DNA of 26,118 bases, from the IMG/VR virus record IMGVR_UViG_3300035698_003233, positions 1 through 26,118 of that record; one strand, 5' to 3'. The notes below the pieces were generated by a model. That model was not told the origin of the DNA. It saw only the letters and a program-made list of their open reading frames with translations, and ran no database searches. Of the stretch, positions 14,017 to 26,118 are shown piece after piece. The number at the start of each line of letters is the position of its first letter. Position 1 is the first letter of the stretch. The stretch is from a virus. The translations under genes were made by a program, and so were the position numbers.

Positions 14017-14709
14017 TTATAATCTCCTGTCTGCTCTATTAGGTACTACCCTAAACTTACGCTTGCCACGCCTTTTATAGGTGTGCTTGTTGCGTTGGTA
14101 GAATTTCATTACAGAGCCTTCAAACATCTGGTATAGAGTCATCCATTGAGGATCACCAGCTTGCTCTCGGATATAAGCATAAATGCCGTCTGAGAGTGTC
14201 TTCAGAGCCGTGTTGGGTAATATAATAGTGTCGTTCATTTCATCAGCTGTAATGTCTGGATACATTTGCTGGTAGAATACTTTTAACGCATGGGCAGATG
14301 TCGGCACAGGCAGGATATAAATACCACCATTATTGACATACCAGAAGCGAGGATTATTGTTCTCAAAGGTTTTAAGTTTATATTCTTCTGCTGTTTCAAA
14401 GTCTATTAAGACTAATGGTTGCAGGAAGTCTTTCCCTGATTCTAGCCATTTAACAGATTTAACAACATTAGTATCCCAAGATGGAGTTGGGGCGGCCAGT
14501 AAGCTTGTACCAGAAGTCGCTGTAATAGCGCCTACCTTCTCAGTAGCGTCTAAGTCGAAGCTATTGTCTGAGAATACTGCTACAGCGTTATTAACCGCCT
14601 GTATCCCTTGGAGAGCATCACCAGATCCATCTCCTATGCCAGAGGCGGAGATTGGGGTTCCAGCTTGTCTAGCTCTTGCCCGATTTAGAATTTCCCGATA
14701 AGTTGCCAA
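14017..14709 (-). CDS. Head-tail adaptor (connector) protein
   Basis: The 230-residue protein starts at TTG 14709 (MATYREILNRARARQAG), with AAGG six bases upstream, and overlaps the previous gene by 41 bp. The early helix TYREILNRARAR, the Asp-rich middle, the strand region FWYVNNGGIYILPVPTSAHALKVFYQQMYPD and the later helices DGIYAYIREQAGDPQW and YQMFEGSVMKFYQRNKH match the layout of podoviral adaptor proteins (P22 gp4 / T7 gp11 type): an open helical ring that binds the portal and receives the nozzle. The basic C-terminal tail (YKRRGKRKFRVVPNRADRR) fits docking to portal or DNA. The gene order, after the capsid protein and before the nozzle, supports this. Confidence 0.6.
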   Translation of the reverse strand: MATYREILNRARARQAGTPISASGIGDGSGDALQGIQAVNNAVAVFSDNSFDLDATEKVGAITATSGTSLLAAPTPSWDTNVVKSVKWLESGKDFLQPLVLIDFETAEEYKLKTFENNNPRFWYVNNGGIYILPVPTSAHALKVFYQQMYPDITADEMNDTIILPNTALKTLSDGIYAYIREQAGDPQWMTLYQMFEGSVMKFYQRNKHTYKRRGKRKFRVVPNRADRRL

Positions 14710-15401: not shown

Positions 15402-16628
15402 TTACAATCTAACTAAATTGCTACGGTGTCCTAGCAACCAAGGAGATTTAACACAAACTGTATATGTTACTGAGAACATTTTGATTGAGTTGTCGCCTCT
15501 GTCTAGTTTAGGTTGCTCTTCAAGCATACGAACAACTCTTACTTTAATTAGGTCGTCTTGTGGGACGTAAAGTACTTCGTTGTCAGCCATACCGTCTGAA
15601 GGGCAGAACTCAAGGATAACGCCGTTAACTTGGATTGCTCTAGTGAAAGTACCAGCAGTACCTCCATTTTTATCTGATTGAGCAAAGAAAGCTTCAGGGG
15701 CTCTTTGGATTCTAACTAATTTGTTAAGGTCACTTAGAGTAACTTCGTTACAGTAAACCTTGCAGTAAGACATTCCGAATTCACGAGTTCTAGCACTCAT
15801 TGTAGTGAAAGCACCACGCTGTCTAAGAGTTCTAACGTCTGTTTCTAAGATATCCTCAGAAAGAGCAGCAGATCCAGTAGAAGCTGTGTACATACCCCTT
15901 GCATTACCAAGAGTGATGATACCACCAGCTCTAGAGCCATTACCTGATTGGGTAGTGTTTCCATTTCTAGCAGTTGCGCCAGTACCTTGAACTCTGTAGT
16001 CTTTAAGACAACGTCTTTCAATAGTTCTGATTGCTTCTGGGATGTTGTTTTCAAGTTGATTCTCGAAAGTGATTTCGTCGAAATGATACAACAATTGGCC
16101 GTTCTGATTCATGTTCGCAATTTTAATTGTGAATGAGAAATTAGAAAGGTAGTTGTAGTCAGACGTTGCGTAAGCTGTATCGTTATGAGAGCCTGCATCT
16201 TCGCCGATTGAACTATCTCTAATTAACCAGAGTTCAACATTATCAGCCAAACTAGCATCAGTACCTTGATCTAAAATGATTGTTAATGAGTTAGTCGCTG
16301 AATCATAAGCTGTAATGTTGTAGATTGCACTGTTATTAGTAGTTTGCAATTGGTGAACACCAACTTTAATTGAGTAAGGGGCTACTAGCGAATTAGCATC
16401 AATAGTTACTGATCCTGCTCCCGCTGTGTAAGCTCCGTCTAATGTAACGCTTCCGTTACCTAAGTTTTGGTCGAACCATTCAACTCTTGAACCAGTTTCT
16501 GATTTCATTTCCATGTGTTCTTGAAAGACTGGTGCGTAAACACGTGATGTCTTGACAAGTGATTCTAAAACTTCTATTTTCGCTGCTTGCGAATCGAATG
16601 TTGCTGTACCGTTTGATAATAGTGGCAT
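15402..16628 (-). CDS. Major capsid protein (HK97 fold, SU10/DUF5309-like)
   Basis: The 408-residue protein starts at ATG 16628 with AGGAGA upstream. Its N-terminus has VLESLVKTSRVYAPVFQEHMEM, then the core EWFDQNLGNGSVTLDG and a sheet of Thr/Ala-rich strands. A helix ENQLENNIPEAIRTIERRCLKDYRV (about 190-213) resembles the spine helix of HK97-fold capsid proteins. The C-terminal part with YVPQDDLIKVRVVRMLEEQPKLDRGDNS, then an MFSVTYTVCV strand and a HRSNLVRL end, is typical of SU10-like (DUF5309) capsid proteins. It lies between scaffold and adaptor genes, is preceded by the same 33-bp leader as the probable decoration gene and is followed by a strong terminator, which fits a highly expressed shell subunit. 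Confidence 0.85.
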   Translation of the reverse strand: MPLLSNGTATFDSQAAKIEVLESLVKTSRVYAPVFQEHMEMKSETGSRVEWFDQNLGNGSVTLDGAYTAGAGSVTIDANSLVAPYSIKVGVHQLQTTNNSAIYNITAYDSATNSLTIILDQGTDASLADNVELWLIRDSSIGEDAGSHNDTAYATSDYNYLSNFSFTIKIANMNQNGQLLYHFDEITFENQLENNIPEAIRTIERRCLKDYRVQGTGATARNGNTTQSGNGSRAGGIITLGNARGMYTASTGSAALSEDILETDVRTLRQRGAFTTMSARTREFGMSYCKVYCNEVTLSDLNKLVRIQRAPEAFFAQSDKNGGTAGTFTRAIQVNGVILEFCPSDGMADNEVLYVPQDDLIKVRVVRMLEEQPKLDRGDNSIKMFSVTYTVCVKSPWLLGHRSNLVRL

Positions 16629-17714: not shown

Positions 17715-20042
17715 TTATCCAAACTGAGCTGGTTGTGATCCAGGCGTACCTTGCGATGCTATGTCCTGAAGCTGTTGCTGTCTCAGTTGTTCCTTCTTCT
17801 GTGCCTCTTCTTCTCTTAACAATTGTGTCTCGTCTTTCAGCATATCACGTAATGCTACATCGTTTGCTCTTGCAAGCATTTGTAACATTCCGTTGAAATC
17901 TACTTTCATTACAGCTTCTTGAGGGAACTCTCTTAATGCGTTCAATAGCATCAATAGATTCTCTCTAGCCAGCTCCTTGCTGATCGTTGTCATAGAACCT
18001 GTTACTGCGATATCACTATCTGTAATAGGAGCTGTAAGCATTTCATAGAATAATTTTTTACTTGGAGGTGGTGGCTCTTTAGTATCAGCGAAGGTTAAAG
18101 ATTTAATCTTCATGTCAACTTCAAGTCTTTTAGCCTCTGATCTCATTTGCTCTTTCTGTTGTTGTTGAGCTTGAACCCATTGTCCTTGCATCGCTGCTAT
18201 TTTAGCAGCAGGAGGAACAACTATTGTTCTCGCTGGGTTATTAGGGTCAGGGATTTCTCTCTGTGGGATAGGCGGTGGTGGCTGTATAGGGCCGTCAGCC
18301 TGTTGAATCAACTGTTGAATATGTTGCCCCATTTGCTGGACTTCTTGGAAGATGTTCATATCCTCGAGTCTTTCAGCCTGGGTCTTCTTGTAGAAGTTCT
18401 CGTAAGCAGTCTCAACACCTGAATAATTTAACAATCTATTAAACAATTCATTACCAGTGAGAGCCATGTCATAAGCTGCTTCTTCGTCTTGGACTTCTGG
18501 TGATTCTGCTAGTTCTTCAACTTGCCGTTTGATCTGGTCTTCTAGAATTTGTTGTGTAGCACGAATACGACAAATGATACTAGGTCTAAGTACCTGCTCA
18601 TCGAAACGGCCAGCCGCTTCAACTATATTCAATTGAGAACCTGAGTAAGATTCTTTGATCTCGGTAGCTGTCTTACGCCCTTGGTGCATTGAACCAAGTT
18701 GGCCTTTACTTATGCCGACTCCTTCTTCAACTACGCCTTCAAGGTATTTAAGCATTGATATCCCTACGTTGATGGAATTACTTGCATCTGTAAGGTTGAT
18801 AAGCGATTCAACTTTGACATTGGTATATGCAGCCCCAGCTTCAAAAGGCTCGATTGGGGTTTCCGTCGGATCAATCACGCCGCCTGGTAATGGGATTATG
18901 TTTTTAGGTGGATCGTTAGCCATACCAGCAGTTCTAGCTATCTCACTAATGAATTGGTTAGAAGTGTATTGGTGTGGTAGGAAGGGTTGTAAAGGGCCTT
19001 GGTTGTAGAAAACCCCTGGTAGGTTCGTTGAAAAAGCTGCAAATAATAACCCATGTTCTACTGGGCTTACGTTCTGGGTTGCTTTCAATACATAGACTTT
19101 CTTATGCTCTAATTTAGAGTCTGAATCTAATCGTGGTTGTAGAACTGCTGTTACATATACGTTCTTGGCTACGAACTTCTCGCCATCTTTGCCCTTGAGG
19201 TACACACTTGGGAGGAAGTAGTCATATAGTCTTACCTTGCCGAAAGGCTCTGTATTCCTGTAGTGGTCCTTAATAGAGCTAGAACCATAACCAGCCATAG
19301 TGCTACCGCTACTGCCCGTTGTCTGAGGCTCTATCTGCGTTAGCACTTCCTGGTCAAAGTCTTCTCTGTCTAATAACTCTGAGTAATTGACATCGTAATA
19401 AAAAACTAGGTTAGATTTGCGCCAGTTGTCGCTAATTGGATAAATACCAGCTTGCCCTATACCTGGAGTAAATGGCTCGATATAATGCGAATGTGGGTTA
19501 AAACTGTGTCCTAGCACCGTATTGCCGTAAGAAATACATTCAGCCATTGCTGTTTTGTAGATATCTTTACAGTCAAATCGTTGATTCTCGGTCTTGATGA
19601 TATCAACCCAAGCGTCATTCGTGAACGGTAAGAACTTCTCTATCCCTGTTTTATAAAAATATTGGCTAAAACTACGAGTAACATTCAACCAATCTCCATT
19701 AGAAGGGAAGTTAAGGTTGCTCATGTTGACTAAATAAGCTCTAAAGAACTTCAGCATCAAAGGTAAATATAAATCACTGTATGAATCTGGAGATATATTC
19801 TCTAGCGCTTCTAGTTCTTCGCCTGTAAGCTTGCTTATGCTATCAGTGTCTAAGTTGTATCTAAGGTAATCTCTGTTAGAAAGCCCTTGGTCCATGAACT
19901 CTTGTTTAAGAGCCAGGTCCATTTGCCATCTACGGTAATCAAATTCGTTCCTTACAAAAGCCCGTTCAGCAATTTGTACAAGGTAGTCATCCCTTAAATC
20001 AATAAGTTCTGGCTCTAAAGAGTTGAAATCTAATTCTTGCAT
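17715..20042 (-). CDS. Portal protein
   Basis: At 775 residues it matches the size of large podoviral portals (P22 gp1 is about 725). It starts at ATG 20042 (MQELDFNSLEPELIDLRDDY), overlapping the upstream TAA by one base, with AGGAAGG before it. The N-terminal third is helical with YSDLYLPLMLKFFRAYLVN. The middle contains the stem/clip-like block IYKTAMAECISYGNTVLGHSF (about 155-175) and FIS-type helices (HQYTSNQFISEIARTAG). The crown and barrel region is long, helical and Gln-rich, with a Pro-rich bend QPPPPIPQREIPD near 590 and QQQQ runs toward the C-terminus. It would form the dodecameric ring that packages DNA with the terminase and receives the adaptor. The assignment rests on size, helical pattern and gene order rather than a single motif. 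Confidence 0.82.
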   Translation of the reverse strand: MQELDFNSLEPELIDLRDDYLVQIAERAFVRNEFDYRRWQMDLALKQEFMDQGLSNRDYLRYNLDTDSISKLTGEELEALENISPDSYSDLYLPLMLKFFRAYLVNMSNLNFPSNGDWLNVTRSFSQYFYKTGIEKFLPFTNDAWVDIIKTENQRFDCKDIYKTAMAECISYGNTVLGHSFNPHSHYIEPFTPGIGQAGIYPISDNWRKSNLVFYYDVNYSELLDREDFDQEVLTQIEPQTTGSSGSTMAGYGSSSIKDHYRNTEPFGKVRLYDYFLPSVYLKGKDGEKFVAKNVYVTAVLQPRLDSDSKLEHKKVYVLKATQNVSPVEHGLLFAAFSTNLPGVFYNQGPLQPFLPHQYTSNQFISEIARTAGMANDPPKNIIPLPGGVIDPTETPIEPFEAGAAYTNVKVESLINLTDASNSINVGISMLKYLEGVVEEGVGISKGQLGSMHQGRKTATEIKESYSGSQLNIVEAAGRFDEQVLRPSIICRIRATQQILEDQIKRQVEELAESPEVQDEEAAYDMALTGNELFNRLLNYSGVETAYENFYKKTQAERLEDMNIFQEVQQMGQHIQQLIQQADGPIQPPPPIPQREIPDPNNPARTIVVPPAAKIAAMQGQWVQAQQQQKEQMRSEAKRLEVDMKIKSLTFADTKEPPPPSKKLFYEMLTAPITDSDIAVTGSMTTISKELARENLLMLLNALREFPQEAVMKVDFNGMLQMLARANDVALRDMLKDETQLLREEEAQKKEQLRQQQLQDIASQGTPGSQPAQFG

Positions 20043-21157: not shown

Positions 21158-22717
21158 TTAGCGCCTTGTTCTTGTCCGCCGTCTTTGCTGCTTTATAGCA
21201 CGGCTGCGCTGGACTAATCCCTCGCGCTGAGCAAATCGTTCCTCAAAGTCGCTTGGCATTAACCCTGGATATAAATAGATAAACATATAGCCGAAAGCAT
21301 CAAAGAAATGCTCATACCACTGATCTTTCTTATATGTTAATTTATGAACACCCACACTGTTGCCACGTACCTTGTCATACACTAAACCTGTCTCAAAACC
21401 TTCAATCATTAAACCGACTTCAATTTCGCCAGTAACATGATGAGCTTCACCTAACATTGGGTGTAAAATTAGACCAGGATGACCATTAATAAGTTTGCCC
21501 ATAAGTTGCTTAATCGCTCGAACCCTATCAGCAGGACCACTCCGAATACTGCGAACTGCCTTACGGAACCGCTGCTGCAAAATCGTTTGGGCAGGAGGCG
21601 CTGTTCCTTGACCGTTGACCATAGCCCCTGCTGGGTCACAATAGATCCTGTAGTCAAACCCTGGGAACTCTCGCTCCCTGATCTCAGCGATCCTGTCCAT
21701 AAACAGGTATAAATCCTCATCTACGCCCATAACTGCCTTATGGAGAATTAAACTACCTATCGGCGAACGCTGACCACATACCCACGCTGGATGGTGACCA
21801 CCAAAGTCCCAGCCCTCTTCTAAAGGCACATCTGCTAATACACCGTACTCTTTATATGGTTTGCAATACGTTTCCTTTCTAAAGTCTTGGAACACTGGCT
21901 TACCTACTGGTAACAACCACTTCAGGTTATACTCCACCTGATAAGCTAACTCGCCCTCGGTCTTCTTGACATCCGCTATCCACTCTTCACTGCGCTTGGC
22001 AGGGTCAGCGGTGTGGTGCACATACATAACACAGTGACCTCTAGTGTTACGCTGCTCTGTTACACCTTCCATGATCTGGATAGGTTCAAAGTCCATATCC
22101 AACTCCTTCCTCCCTAAATCCTCATACAAACTCTTCGGCACTGGCGTACTGTTGATAATCAACTTCGCTATCGGGCCCTTAGCTGCTGCCATCGCTGACC
22201 TAAGCGTAGCCTCTTGGTTCTCTTGGAACCCAAACTCATCTAACCAAACCCGCGTGAATGTCTTACCCCTCATCTTGTTACTCGTACTTGCCGTAGCTAT
22301 AATACGACTCACCATTGCTTCATTAATGATTGTCAGCCGCTTAATCACTAACTTAGGCCATGGGTAATCCTTCGATAACCTCTCATACAAAGGGGCTATC
22401 CGTGTCTCTAAAAGATCCGCCGCATCTTCCTCATTCTGGTTCATCACGCCCAAACGCACGTTCTTCTGGAATAAAACCATCCAAAGAAAATAAGCCGCAA
22501 AATAATGAGTGAAAAACATCTGCCGTGACTTGACGATCACTATGTGCTTATTCGCCCTCACTGCCTTATCTACCTCCCTCAGATAACGCATACGAGGAGC
22601 TAAACGGATCTCTCCTGAACCCTCATCTGTTGTCCGAATACAATCAAATAAAAAATCAATAAACGAGTACTTCCATCTCGCCATATCCTTTGCTAGTTCT
22701 TCTGCACTCTTACTCAC
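21158..22717 (-). CDS. terL: Terminase large subunit (DNA-packaging ATPase/nuclease)
   Basis: The 519-residue protein starts at GTG 22717 (MSKSAEELAK), overlapping the end of the upstream small gene by 8 bp. ATPase motifs: a variant Walker A IVKSRQMFFTH (about 61-71), Walker B RVWLDEFGF (156-163, with Asp160-Glu161) and a coupling motif INSTP (188-192). Nuclease motifs of the RNase H fold: WDFGG (Asp304), YCDPAG (Asp361) and a third acidic candidate in FFDAFGY (Asp473). The C-terminus is strongly basic (RSRAIKQQRRRTRTRR). It pumps DNA into the procapsid through the portal and cuts unit lengths. It is the most secure assignment in the window and fixes the phage nature of the region. Confidence 0.93.
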   Translation of the reverse strand: MSKSAEELAKDMARWKYSFIDFLFDCIRTTDEGSGEIRLAPRMRYLREVDKAVRANKHIVIVKSRQMFFTHYFAAYFLWMVLFQKNVRLGVMNQNEEDAADLLETRIAPLYERLSKDYPWPKLVIKRLTIINEAMVSRIIATASTSNKMRGKTFTRVWLDEFGFQENQEATLRSAMAAAKGPIAKLIINSTPVPKSLYEDLGRKELDMDFEPIQIMEGVTEQRNTRGHCVMYVHHTADPAKRSEEWIADVKKTEGELAYQVEYNLKWLLPVGKPVFQDFRKETYCKPYKEYGVLADVPLEEGWDFGGHHPAWVCGQRSPIGSLILHKAVMGVDEDLYLFMDRIAEIREREFPGFDYRIYCDPAGAMVNGQGTAPPAQTILQQRFRKAVRSIRSGPADRVRAIKQLMGKLINGHPGLILHPMLGEAHHVTGEIEVGLMIEGFETGLVYDKVRGNSVGVHKLTYKKDQWYEHFFDAFGYMFIYLYPGLMPSDFEERFAQREGLVQRSRAIKQQRRRTRTRR

Positions 22718-24761: not shown

Positions 24762-24975
24762 GCGAAATAAATAAATAAATACTCACCTCTCGTAATATAT
24801 ACTCACATTCACGTACTTAATACACTTATTACACGTTGAATACACGGCAAAATATACTGAATACTTTAAAAATGTCGAAAATTAATACAAAAATCAAGTA
24901 TTTAATACTCAATAACGTGTAATAAATACACGGCAAACTGTATGCAAATAGCGAAAAATGTATGTAATAAATACA
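24748..24975. repeat. Array of 13-bp palindromic operator-like sites
   Basis: Perfect palindromes TGTATTAAATACA (24748-24760) and AGTATTTAATACT (24897-24909), one-mismatch copies TGTAATAAATACA at 24918-24930 and 24963-24975, and a weaker CGTACTTAATACA at 24812-24824. Half-site AATAC also occurs at 24839, 24860 and 24884. Centre-to-centre spacings of 64, 85 and 21 bases fit whole helical turns, but 45 does not. They look like binding sites for a dimeric protein, probably the RHH-like product. Confidence 0.6.
24826..24937. repeat. 12-bp inverted repeat with 13-bp direct repeats
   Basis: TTATTACACGTT at 24826-24837 and its exact reverse complement at 24914-24925, each followed by the direct repeat AATACACGGCAAA at 24839-24851 and 24925-24937. 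They lie inside the AT-rich operator array and may be part of the same regulatory or replication-origin structure. Confidence 0.7.
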
Positions 24976-25035
24976 TATAAATATATAGGTAAATACCATA
25001 CAAAATTAGGTGGTAATTAACATAAACAACCGAAA

Positions 25036-25225
25036 GTGGGAGGGCCCACATTTGCCGAGGTGGCGGATATTAGCGGCCGAAGGCGGGGCGCACGTGGGGG
25101 CTGGCGAGAGAGGAAGGGGGGGGTTTCCAGTGATTGAGCGGGATTGATTAACGCGCCGCTGGCAGGGTGGCAGGGCAGATTTGACCTCATTAAGGGGATT
25201 GGGGGTATTCAGAGGGATTGCGGGG
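25036..25225 (+). other. G-rich block on the plus strand
   Basis: About 190 bases with many G-tracts, including a G8 run near 25117, a GTGGG-CCCAC hairpin near 25036-25049 and a GGCAGGGTGGCAGGGCAG repeat near 25161-25178. Composition is sharply different from the AT-rich array next to it. It is a candidate for an origin, packaging site or transferred segment. Confidence 0.5.
25194..25225 (+). promoter_or_regulatory. G-quadruplex-type motif overlapping the -35
   Basis: Four G-tracts of 4, 5, 3 and 4 bases (25194, 25201, 25214, 25222) with loops of 3, 8 and 5 bases. The last loop and tract contain the -35 box of the small-RNA promoter, so folding of this strand could block or tune that promoter. 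Confidence 0.55.
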
Positions 25226-25246
25226 TTTAGTTAATGGCTGTATAAT
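25218..25246 (+). promoter_or_regulatory. Rightward promoter of the small RNA
   Basis: -35 TTGCGG (25218-25223), a 17-base spacer and a perfect -10 TATAAT (25241-25246), followed by AGTAGG. Predicted start near 25253. The -10 is part of an 11-base box, TATAATAGTAG, that recurs at 26020 (plus) and 2892 (minus). Confidence 0.75.
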
Positions 25247-25252
25247 AGTAGG

Positions 25253-25400
25253 GCAGTCAAGCTCCCATCACGAACGCTCTTCAATGACAGCTCCCTTACA
25301 AGGGTAGGCATACGGTCCGCCTATCGAGTAGCAAAAGCCAGAAACTCGAATTCAACCGAATAAATAGAATTAAACAGCGGGTAATTAACCCGCATTTTTT
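25253..25400 (+). ncRNA. Structured small RNA, about 148 nt, family unknown
   Basis: The unit has its own promoter, no significant reading frame and an intrinsic terminator. Hairpins seen: CCCT/AGGG (25293-25304), TAGGC/GCCTA with a nine-base loop (25305-25323), TCGAGT/ACTCGA with a 14-base A-rich loop (25324-25349), then the terminator stem. The first 40 bases repeat AGCTCCC twice (25260 and 25290). I tried tRNA, tmRNA, hammerhead and common riboswitch layouts and none fits. It could regulate the neighbouring rightward gene or a host or phage mRNA. A seven-codon frame starting near 25284 (ATG ACA GCT CCC TTA CAA GGG TAG) has no ribosome site. Confidence 0.65.
25377..25400 (+). terminator. 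Intrinsic terminator of the small RNA
   Basis: GCGGGT (25377-25382), loop AATTA, ACCCGC (25388-25393) and then A plus six T (25395-25400). A perfect six-pair GC-rich stem with a T-tract is a strong rho-independent terminator on the plus strand. Confidence 0.88.
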
Positions 25401-25731
25401 GCGTTTAACGAAAGCTTAATTTTCAAGATATCTCGACATTGATAACAAACACTACATAACAAGGAATTTGTAGAACCCTCTGTCTGACAGCGTTTGCAGC
25501 TACCCCTCTTATAACCTATTAATAATACACAACGTAATAATGTTGACTATATTATCTTGCGTGGTTGCAGCACCACACAGTTTATGTATTAACAGAACCT
25601 CAAAATTCCGTTACTGGCACAATATAATCATGTTTCTTATCTAATTGCTGTGCTGTTCCTTACATATGTAACGGGGCCTTCTTATCTTACCCGCGTAACA
25701 CGCTGGTATCACTCACTTTTTGAAAGAAAAT

Positions 25732-25750
25732 TACTACTACTACTACTACT
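25732..25750. repeat. TAC trinucleotide repeat, six units
   Basis: Six TAC units plus T in a non-coding stretch. About 40 bases downstream two poly-T runs (25792-25799 and 25802-25809) follow. No reading frame uses the repeat. Confidence 0.85.
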
Positions 25751-25843
25751 TTGAGTTAGGTTTAAAGAAAGAGGACAGCCCCGTGTGAGAATTTTTTTTA
25801 ATTTTTTTTATTAACCCTCTGCGAGCCAGTGTCTGTATTTTTT

Positions 25844-25890
25844 ACAACTCACGCCTCAATTGGCGTCATTGCTAGGTAAGTGCGAGTTGT
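25844..25890. other. Nested inverted repeats
   Basis: Outer arms ACAACTC (25844-25850) and GAGTTGT (25884-25890) are perfect. Inside lies a second hairpin, ACGCC (25851-25855) / GGCGT (25862-25866). The block could fold as RNA or DNA. No T-tract follows on the plus strand; on the minus strand TGTAAAAAAT follows the outer arm, which is not a U-tract. Confidence 0.5.
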
Positions 25891-25895
25891 TGAGT

Positions 25896-25919
25896 TATTT
25901 GTAAGAGTATTTGTAAGGG
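25896..25919 (+). repeat. Two 12-bp direct repeats before a -35 box
   Basis: TATTTGTAAGAG (25896-25907) and TATTTGTAAGGG (25908-25919) are in tandem, with a partial third (TATTG) running into TTGACA at 25922-25927. A -10-like TATGTT lies 15 bases further on. They may be activator or repressor sites for a rightward promoter. Confidence 0.5.
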
Positions 25920-25996
25920 TATTGACAGAACACTTTTGTTTATATGTTGTTAATCATAACACACACTCAAGATTAAGATTAATTAACAATATTATA

Positions 25997-26030
25997 GTTA
26001 CATCTTAACAGTAGTGTGGTATAATAGTAG
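25997..26030 (+). promoter_or_regulatory. Rightward promoter before the 26078 gene
   Basis: Extended -10 TGGTATAAT with core TATAAT at 26020-26025, followed by AGTAG. A -35 GTTACA (25997-26002) lies 17 bases upstream and matches four of six consensus bases. Predicted start near 26032, giving a 46-base leader with AGAGGA (26067-26072) before the ATG. Confidence 0.65.
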
Positions 26031-26077
26031 TATAGAGATCAGTCAAGGGATTGAGTAACAAAAAAAAGAGGAATATT

Positions 26078-26118
26078 ATGGAAAAAATAAAATTTTACAG
26101 TCGTCACGAAGTGACGCA
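26078..26118 (+). CDS. Start of a rightward gene, cut off by window
   Basis: ATG 26078 has AGAGGA five bases upstream and lies 46 bases after a predicted transcription start. Thirteen complete codons are visible: MEKIKFYSRHEVT. It is the only plus-strand gene supported here and marks a module read in the opposite direction to the virion genes. Bases 26102-26116 form a perfect six-base inverted repeat inside it (CGTCAC/GTGACG around GAA). Too little is visible to propose a function. Confidence 0.7.
   Translation, partial: MEKIKFYSRHEVT

Follow-up and report, generated by a model that had tools for sequence, protein, structure and literature searches.

A promoter, a non-coding body and an intrinsic terminator, set in the border between two divergent gene modules of an uncultured, podovirus-like phage, probably make up a real small-RNA (sRNA) gene of about 148 nucleotides (nt), an orphan of a known kind, the phage sRNAs. 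The phage comes from a virus record of 26,118 bases, which is referred to here as the window. Positions 414-24,786 hold, on the minus strand, a structural operon in podovirus order, and a gene-poor border separates this operon from a plus-strand gene, which begins at 26079 and runs off the end of the record. The main features of this setting are as follows.

21158-22717, minus: large terminase, structural operon
17715-20042, minus: portal-like protein, structural operon
Minus: scaffold-like protein, structural operon
15402-16628, minus: putative capsid protein, structural operon
14017-14709, minus: SU10-type adaptor, structural operon
Minus: tail and internal proteins, structural operon
24787-26078: border of 1.3 kb between the minus-strand operon and the plus-strand gene, without a convincing gene
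24839 and 24925: AT-rich direct repeats AATACACGGCAAA in the border
25194-25225, plus: G-quadruplex-like G-rich tract, directly 5' of the sRNA unit and overlapping its -35 element
25997-26025, plus: promoter of the plus-strand gene, GTTACA-17-TATAAT, its -10 context common to the candidate sRNA promoter

Elements of the transcription unit

Within the border, the candidate unit consists of the following elements, all on the plus strand.

25218-25223, plus: -35-like hexamer TTGCGG within the G-rich tract, with 3 of 6 consensus bases (TTGACA)
25241-25246, plus: -10 box TATAAT, in the context GTATAATAGTAG (25240-25251)
25253-25400, plus: predicted transcript of about 148 nt, its start placed by distance from the -10 box
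25254-25261, plus: CAGTCAAG, predicted sRNA 5' end, also found in the plus-strand gene's leader (26040-26047)
25260-25266, plus: first AGCTCCC motif, UCCC-type and complementary to GGGAGCU, mean unpaired probability 0.43 (start 25253)
25289-25295, plus: second AGCTCCC motif, mean unpaired probability 0.20 (start 25253), predicted to be mostly paired
25293-25304, plus: hairpin CCCU-UACA-AGGG, 4 bp, pair probabilities 0.82-0.96
25305-25323, plus: hairpin UAGGC-AUACGGUCC-GCCUA, pair probabilities 0.80-0.94
25324-25349, plus: hairpin UCGAGU-AGCAAAAGCCAGAA-ACUCGA, pair probabilities 0.81-1.0
25350-25361, plus: weak hairpin AUUC-AACC-GAAU, pair probabilities 0.63-0.71
25377-25400, plus: intrinsic terminator GCGGGT-AATTA-ACCCGC, then A and T6, the only one this strict in the window

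The sequence-only reading had described a clean TTGCGG-17-TATAAT promoter. Both elements are present at that spacing (17 nt), but the promoter is not clean, as half of its -35 departs from the consensus and a standard promoter scan of the window misses this element. The -10 region supports the promoter. The 12-mer GTATAATAGTAG has an exact second copy at 26019-26030, in the promoter of the plus-strand gene, and the window has three copies of TATAATAGNAG for an expected 0.1 (0 of 200 shuffles). At the corresponding place before its corresponding gene, the relative L029 carries TATAATAGAAG. The stretches downstream of the two -10 boxes share CAGTCAAG (3 in the window versus 0.79 expected, a number reached in 4 of 100 shuffles), a likeness that is modest alone (P ~0.02).

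At its 3' end the unit closes, as had been proposed, with a terminator, whose hairpin (25377-25393; 6 bp, 5 of them G-C, -9.4 kcal/mol) is followed by an A and six T (25395-25400). The body is likewise non-coding: no open reading frame (ORF) of at least 50 amino acids lies inside the unit on either strand, and a coding explanation was rejected, as the six frames give no usable ORF. The length of about 148 nt agrees with the earlier estimate, given a start 7 nt after the -10 box. Promoter (with a weak -35), non-coding body and Rho-independent terminator thus follow one another on one strand, as in the sequence of an independent, intrinsically terminated sRNA gene.

Under strict rules (TTGnnn, 16-18 nt, TATAAT and a terminator no more than 400 nt downstream, its stem having 6 bp or more with 5 or more G-C pairs and being followed by 6 or more T), the two strands of the 26-kb window hold just this one promoter-terminator unit. 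Strand-shuffling the border 4,000 times produced none, a result that is an upper bound on the strength of the non-randomness because the rules were chosen after the feature had been seen. A looser generic scan found terminators in numbers no higher than chance. The sequence elements, their non-random arrangement and the shared promoter context are the firm part of the case.

Three hairpins had been claimed for the body, a description that does not match the ensemble computed from 25253. Two body hairpins are strongly predicted (25305-25323 and 25324-25349), as is the terminator; in addition there are one 4-bp hairpin, one weak hairpin and a 5' part of which the first 40 nt are undecided. Compared with shuffles, the whole RNA folds mildly better (z -1.9), and the 3' half reaches z -3.0. 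None of the Rfam 15 covariance models (including pRNA, 6S, tmRNA, riboswitches and ribozymes) matched at the gathering cut-off or at E 10; the best overlapping match was L20_leader, at 15.3 bits versus 58.7 required (E 7.4). ARAGORN found no tRNA or tmRNA in the unit. The sequence therefore supports the proposal of a complete sRNA gene that sits at a module border and belongs to no known family; the border between divergent modules is real and occurs in relatives too.

Two other properties of the border were observed. The G-rich region 25030-25228 has quadruplex-like spacing and yields spurious ORFs, such as 25017-25190. The border folds most strongly (z -4.1) on the minus strand at 25530-25649, a stretch with no assigned promoter or family.

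Relatives of the phage and of the RNA

No similar DNA was found in cultured phages at E 0.01, with merely 24-28-nt fragments at E 0.5 or worse, and an exact 24-mer of the sRNA was not found in IMG/VR. Scans with rigid 8-residue peptides from single proteins (terminase, portal and putative capsid protein) returned no relatives, and a terminase motif pattern returned remote terminases only. True relatives were reached through alignments built from motif-pattern matches and then through a portal alignment. Their portal identity to the window is 34-57% overall, with L082-L084 at 54-55% and L085-L094 at 36-38%; for terminase, L027 and L028 show 51-52% and L029-L031 33%. The relatives have the same gene order, and one of them, L096 (JABSOS010000004.1), lies in a Candidatus Caenarcanales metagenome-assembled genome (Melainabacteria), on a scaffold of 358 kb. 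Five tRNA genes lie near this copy, whose place on that scaffold is a host-range clue for the phage group.

The complete divergent border is present in L083 and L029, and neither has a comparable promoter-terminator unit there. Other features of the border recur. L028 (minus strand, from 238) has a G-tract 5' of its structural genes, in the same orientation relative to the modules as in the window, and L083 is also G-rich (minus strand, ~4180-4060). An (ACT)6 tract lies ~340 nt before the next gene both in the window (25733-25750) and in L083 (3907-3890, minus), and TCTTATCTTACC precedes it in these two distant relatives. With the (ACT) tract, and not without it, the alignment of the window and L083 in this part exceeds 300 of 300 shuffles.

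Neither sequence nor covariance searches, which may not have reached records very near the window, brought up a homologue of the sRNA in 14 relative records. Sequence comparison of the sRNA with the relatives' borders gave chance-level results, and the covariance model gave nothing above noise beyond the window itself. The contig of the nearest relative, L028, ends close to, and before, the expected site of the unit; a 19-mer extension past its end in IMG/VR returned L028 alone and no overlapping record. With the homologue searches empty and L028 ending where it does, the sRNA appears to be either lineage-specific or changed beyond recognition in a fast-changing border. The lack of homologues is weak evidence against a function.

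Of 194 Vampirovibriophyceae genomes, 47 were matched at E 0.1 by a covariance model built from the single sRNA. These matches were rejected as homologues, as the five best, which were inspected, rest on a terminator hairpin. The weak matches fall on host terminators of like form (GCGG-loop-CCGC, then T6), and so this type of terminator occurs in the class that holds one relative of the phage.

Several arrangements in the structural operon were also recorded. In the window (2892-2878, minus) and in L029 (6775-6761, minus), TATAATAG(T/A)AGT is directly followed by ATG, so that the mRNAs would be leaderless; the window gene lacks a clear ribosome-binding site. In the gap that separates the putative capsid gene from the next (15407-15350, minus), TTGTAA-17-TATAATAG runs immediately into a GGGGTCAAGTTTGGCCCC-TTTTCTTTTT hairpin, so that a promoter-like box overlaps a terminator-like hairpin. 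An identical 21-nt leader, TGTGAATAGGAGAATATAAAT, lies upstream of 16628 (putative capsid gene) and 21104 (second structural gene), both minus, and is perhaps a duplicated strong ribosome-binding site.

Possible roles of the unit

Our preferred reading, to which we give a probability of roughly 45%, is that the unit is a lineage-specific phage sRNA gene whose product acts in trans through its AGCUCCC motifs. Host RNA polymerase would start the sRNA at a promoter with the same -10 context as that of the plus-strand gene, and because of this shared context the sRNA would be expected in the same phase as its neighbour. The intrinsic terminator would stop transcription and release a separate RNA about 148 nt long. 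Its 5' third, predicted to have no stable fold and carrying the two motifs, may pair with purine-rich ribosome-binding sites and block translation, with the two 3' hairpins and the terminator stabilizing the molecule. Transcription, timing, action in trans and the ribosome-binding-site mechanism are all steps that we infer. Such pairing through UCCC motifs is used by LhrC, RsaE, FsrA and RNAIII and is experimentally supported in LhrC and other sRNAs of low-GC bacteria (PMC4132741). Targets would be host genes or phage genes outside the window. Points that count against this reading are the second motif, predicted to be mostly paired, the merely mild fold advantage of the whole RNA and the weak -35. 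A duplex-energy search of translation starts among the window genes, beyond which lie the plus-strand module and the host, gave none that was significant versus shuffled RNA (best z -1.1). With no significant target in the window and no homologue in the relatives' records, the new regulatory RNA suggested earlier stays a plausible candidate rather than an established one. A lineage-restricted phage RNA has a precedent in PAK_P4as15, reported to be missing from the related phage PAK_P3 (PMC12197685).

The same elements could have other explanations. The terminator might act as an insulator that blocks stray plus-strand transcription into the plus-strand module, the promoter-like sequence being incidental or a decayed duplicate of its neighbour's. 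The poor -35, a -10 context that could be a decayed copy and the unconserved body would fit, but the copy of the -10 context is exact over 12 nt, the body hairpins at 25305-25349 are strongly predicted and the 3' half folds better than shuffles, which leaves this explanation somewhat unlikely. Alternatively, the unit could serve DNA replication. The border would then be the origin of the phage, and transcription starting at 25241, downstream of the G-rich tract and the AT-rich repeats, would open the DNA or supply a primer, with the RNA sequence mattering little, as with promoter pO of lambda. Transcription from pO is reported to matter in lambda replication (PMC12197685). The border is gene-free and has AT-rich direct repeats and a strong G-rich tract, and the (ACT)6 tract stands at nearly equal distances from the next gene in the window and L083. 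Against this, L083 and L029 keep the border without the unit, so that the unit is not a conserved part of an origin, and no replication gene lies beside it within the window; we regard an origin role as unlikely.

A cis-antisense RNA, of the type of lambda OOP or P22 sar, would cover the mRNA of an opposite gene, and phages are known to regulate repressor and lysis-lysogeny genes with RNAs of this type (PMC12197685). Across 25253-25400, however, no opposite-strand ORF of at least 50 amino acids is found, the nearest minus-strand ORF (25017-25190) looks spurious, and the promoter scan places the structural operon's best minus-strand match at 24878-24851, beyond the unit. Because nothing is encoded opposite it, a cis-antisense role is very improbable.

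A bolder form of the trans-acting sRNA reading would make the RNA the first member of a new phage regulatory RNA family, made together with the plus-strand module's genes in a podovirus-like group (one relative lying on a Melainabacteria scaffold) and using its two AGCUCCC motifs to silence messages of the host or the phage; we consider this doubtful. Phage sRNAs are known chiefly from phages that infect a few cultured bacteria. If real, the candidate would add an example from phages whose group has no close cultured member among the collections searched, and it would show how quickly such genes are gained and lost, with relatives retaining the divergent border and not the sRNA. Alone, without homologues or expression, it alters little.

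Comparison with known RNAs

Lambda OOP RNA is, like the candidate, a short phage RNA near a possible replication region. OOP is antisense to cII, an opposite gene that it overlaps, whereas the candidate overlaps no opposite gene. The packaging RNA (pRNA) of phi29 is a phage non-coding RNA of similar size. A pRNA-like packaging role was rejected, as the candidate has no Rfam match and its phage has a large terminase; in relatives, the protein upstream of the large terminase resembles a small terminase subunit. The trans-acting phage sRNAs PreS of lambda and VpdS of VP882 are also short non-coding RNAs between phage genes, but they are Hfq-binding RNAs with tested targets (PMC12197685), whereas the candidate is known here from its sequence. 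LhrC, RsaE and FsrA are bacterial genes with shown use of their motifs (PMC4132741), whereas the candidate belongs to a phage, has no Rfam match and carries motifs whose use is predicted and which are predicted to be partly paired; what it has in common with them is repeated CU-rich UCCC motifs, hairpins and an intrinsic terminator.
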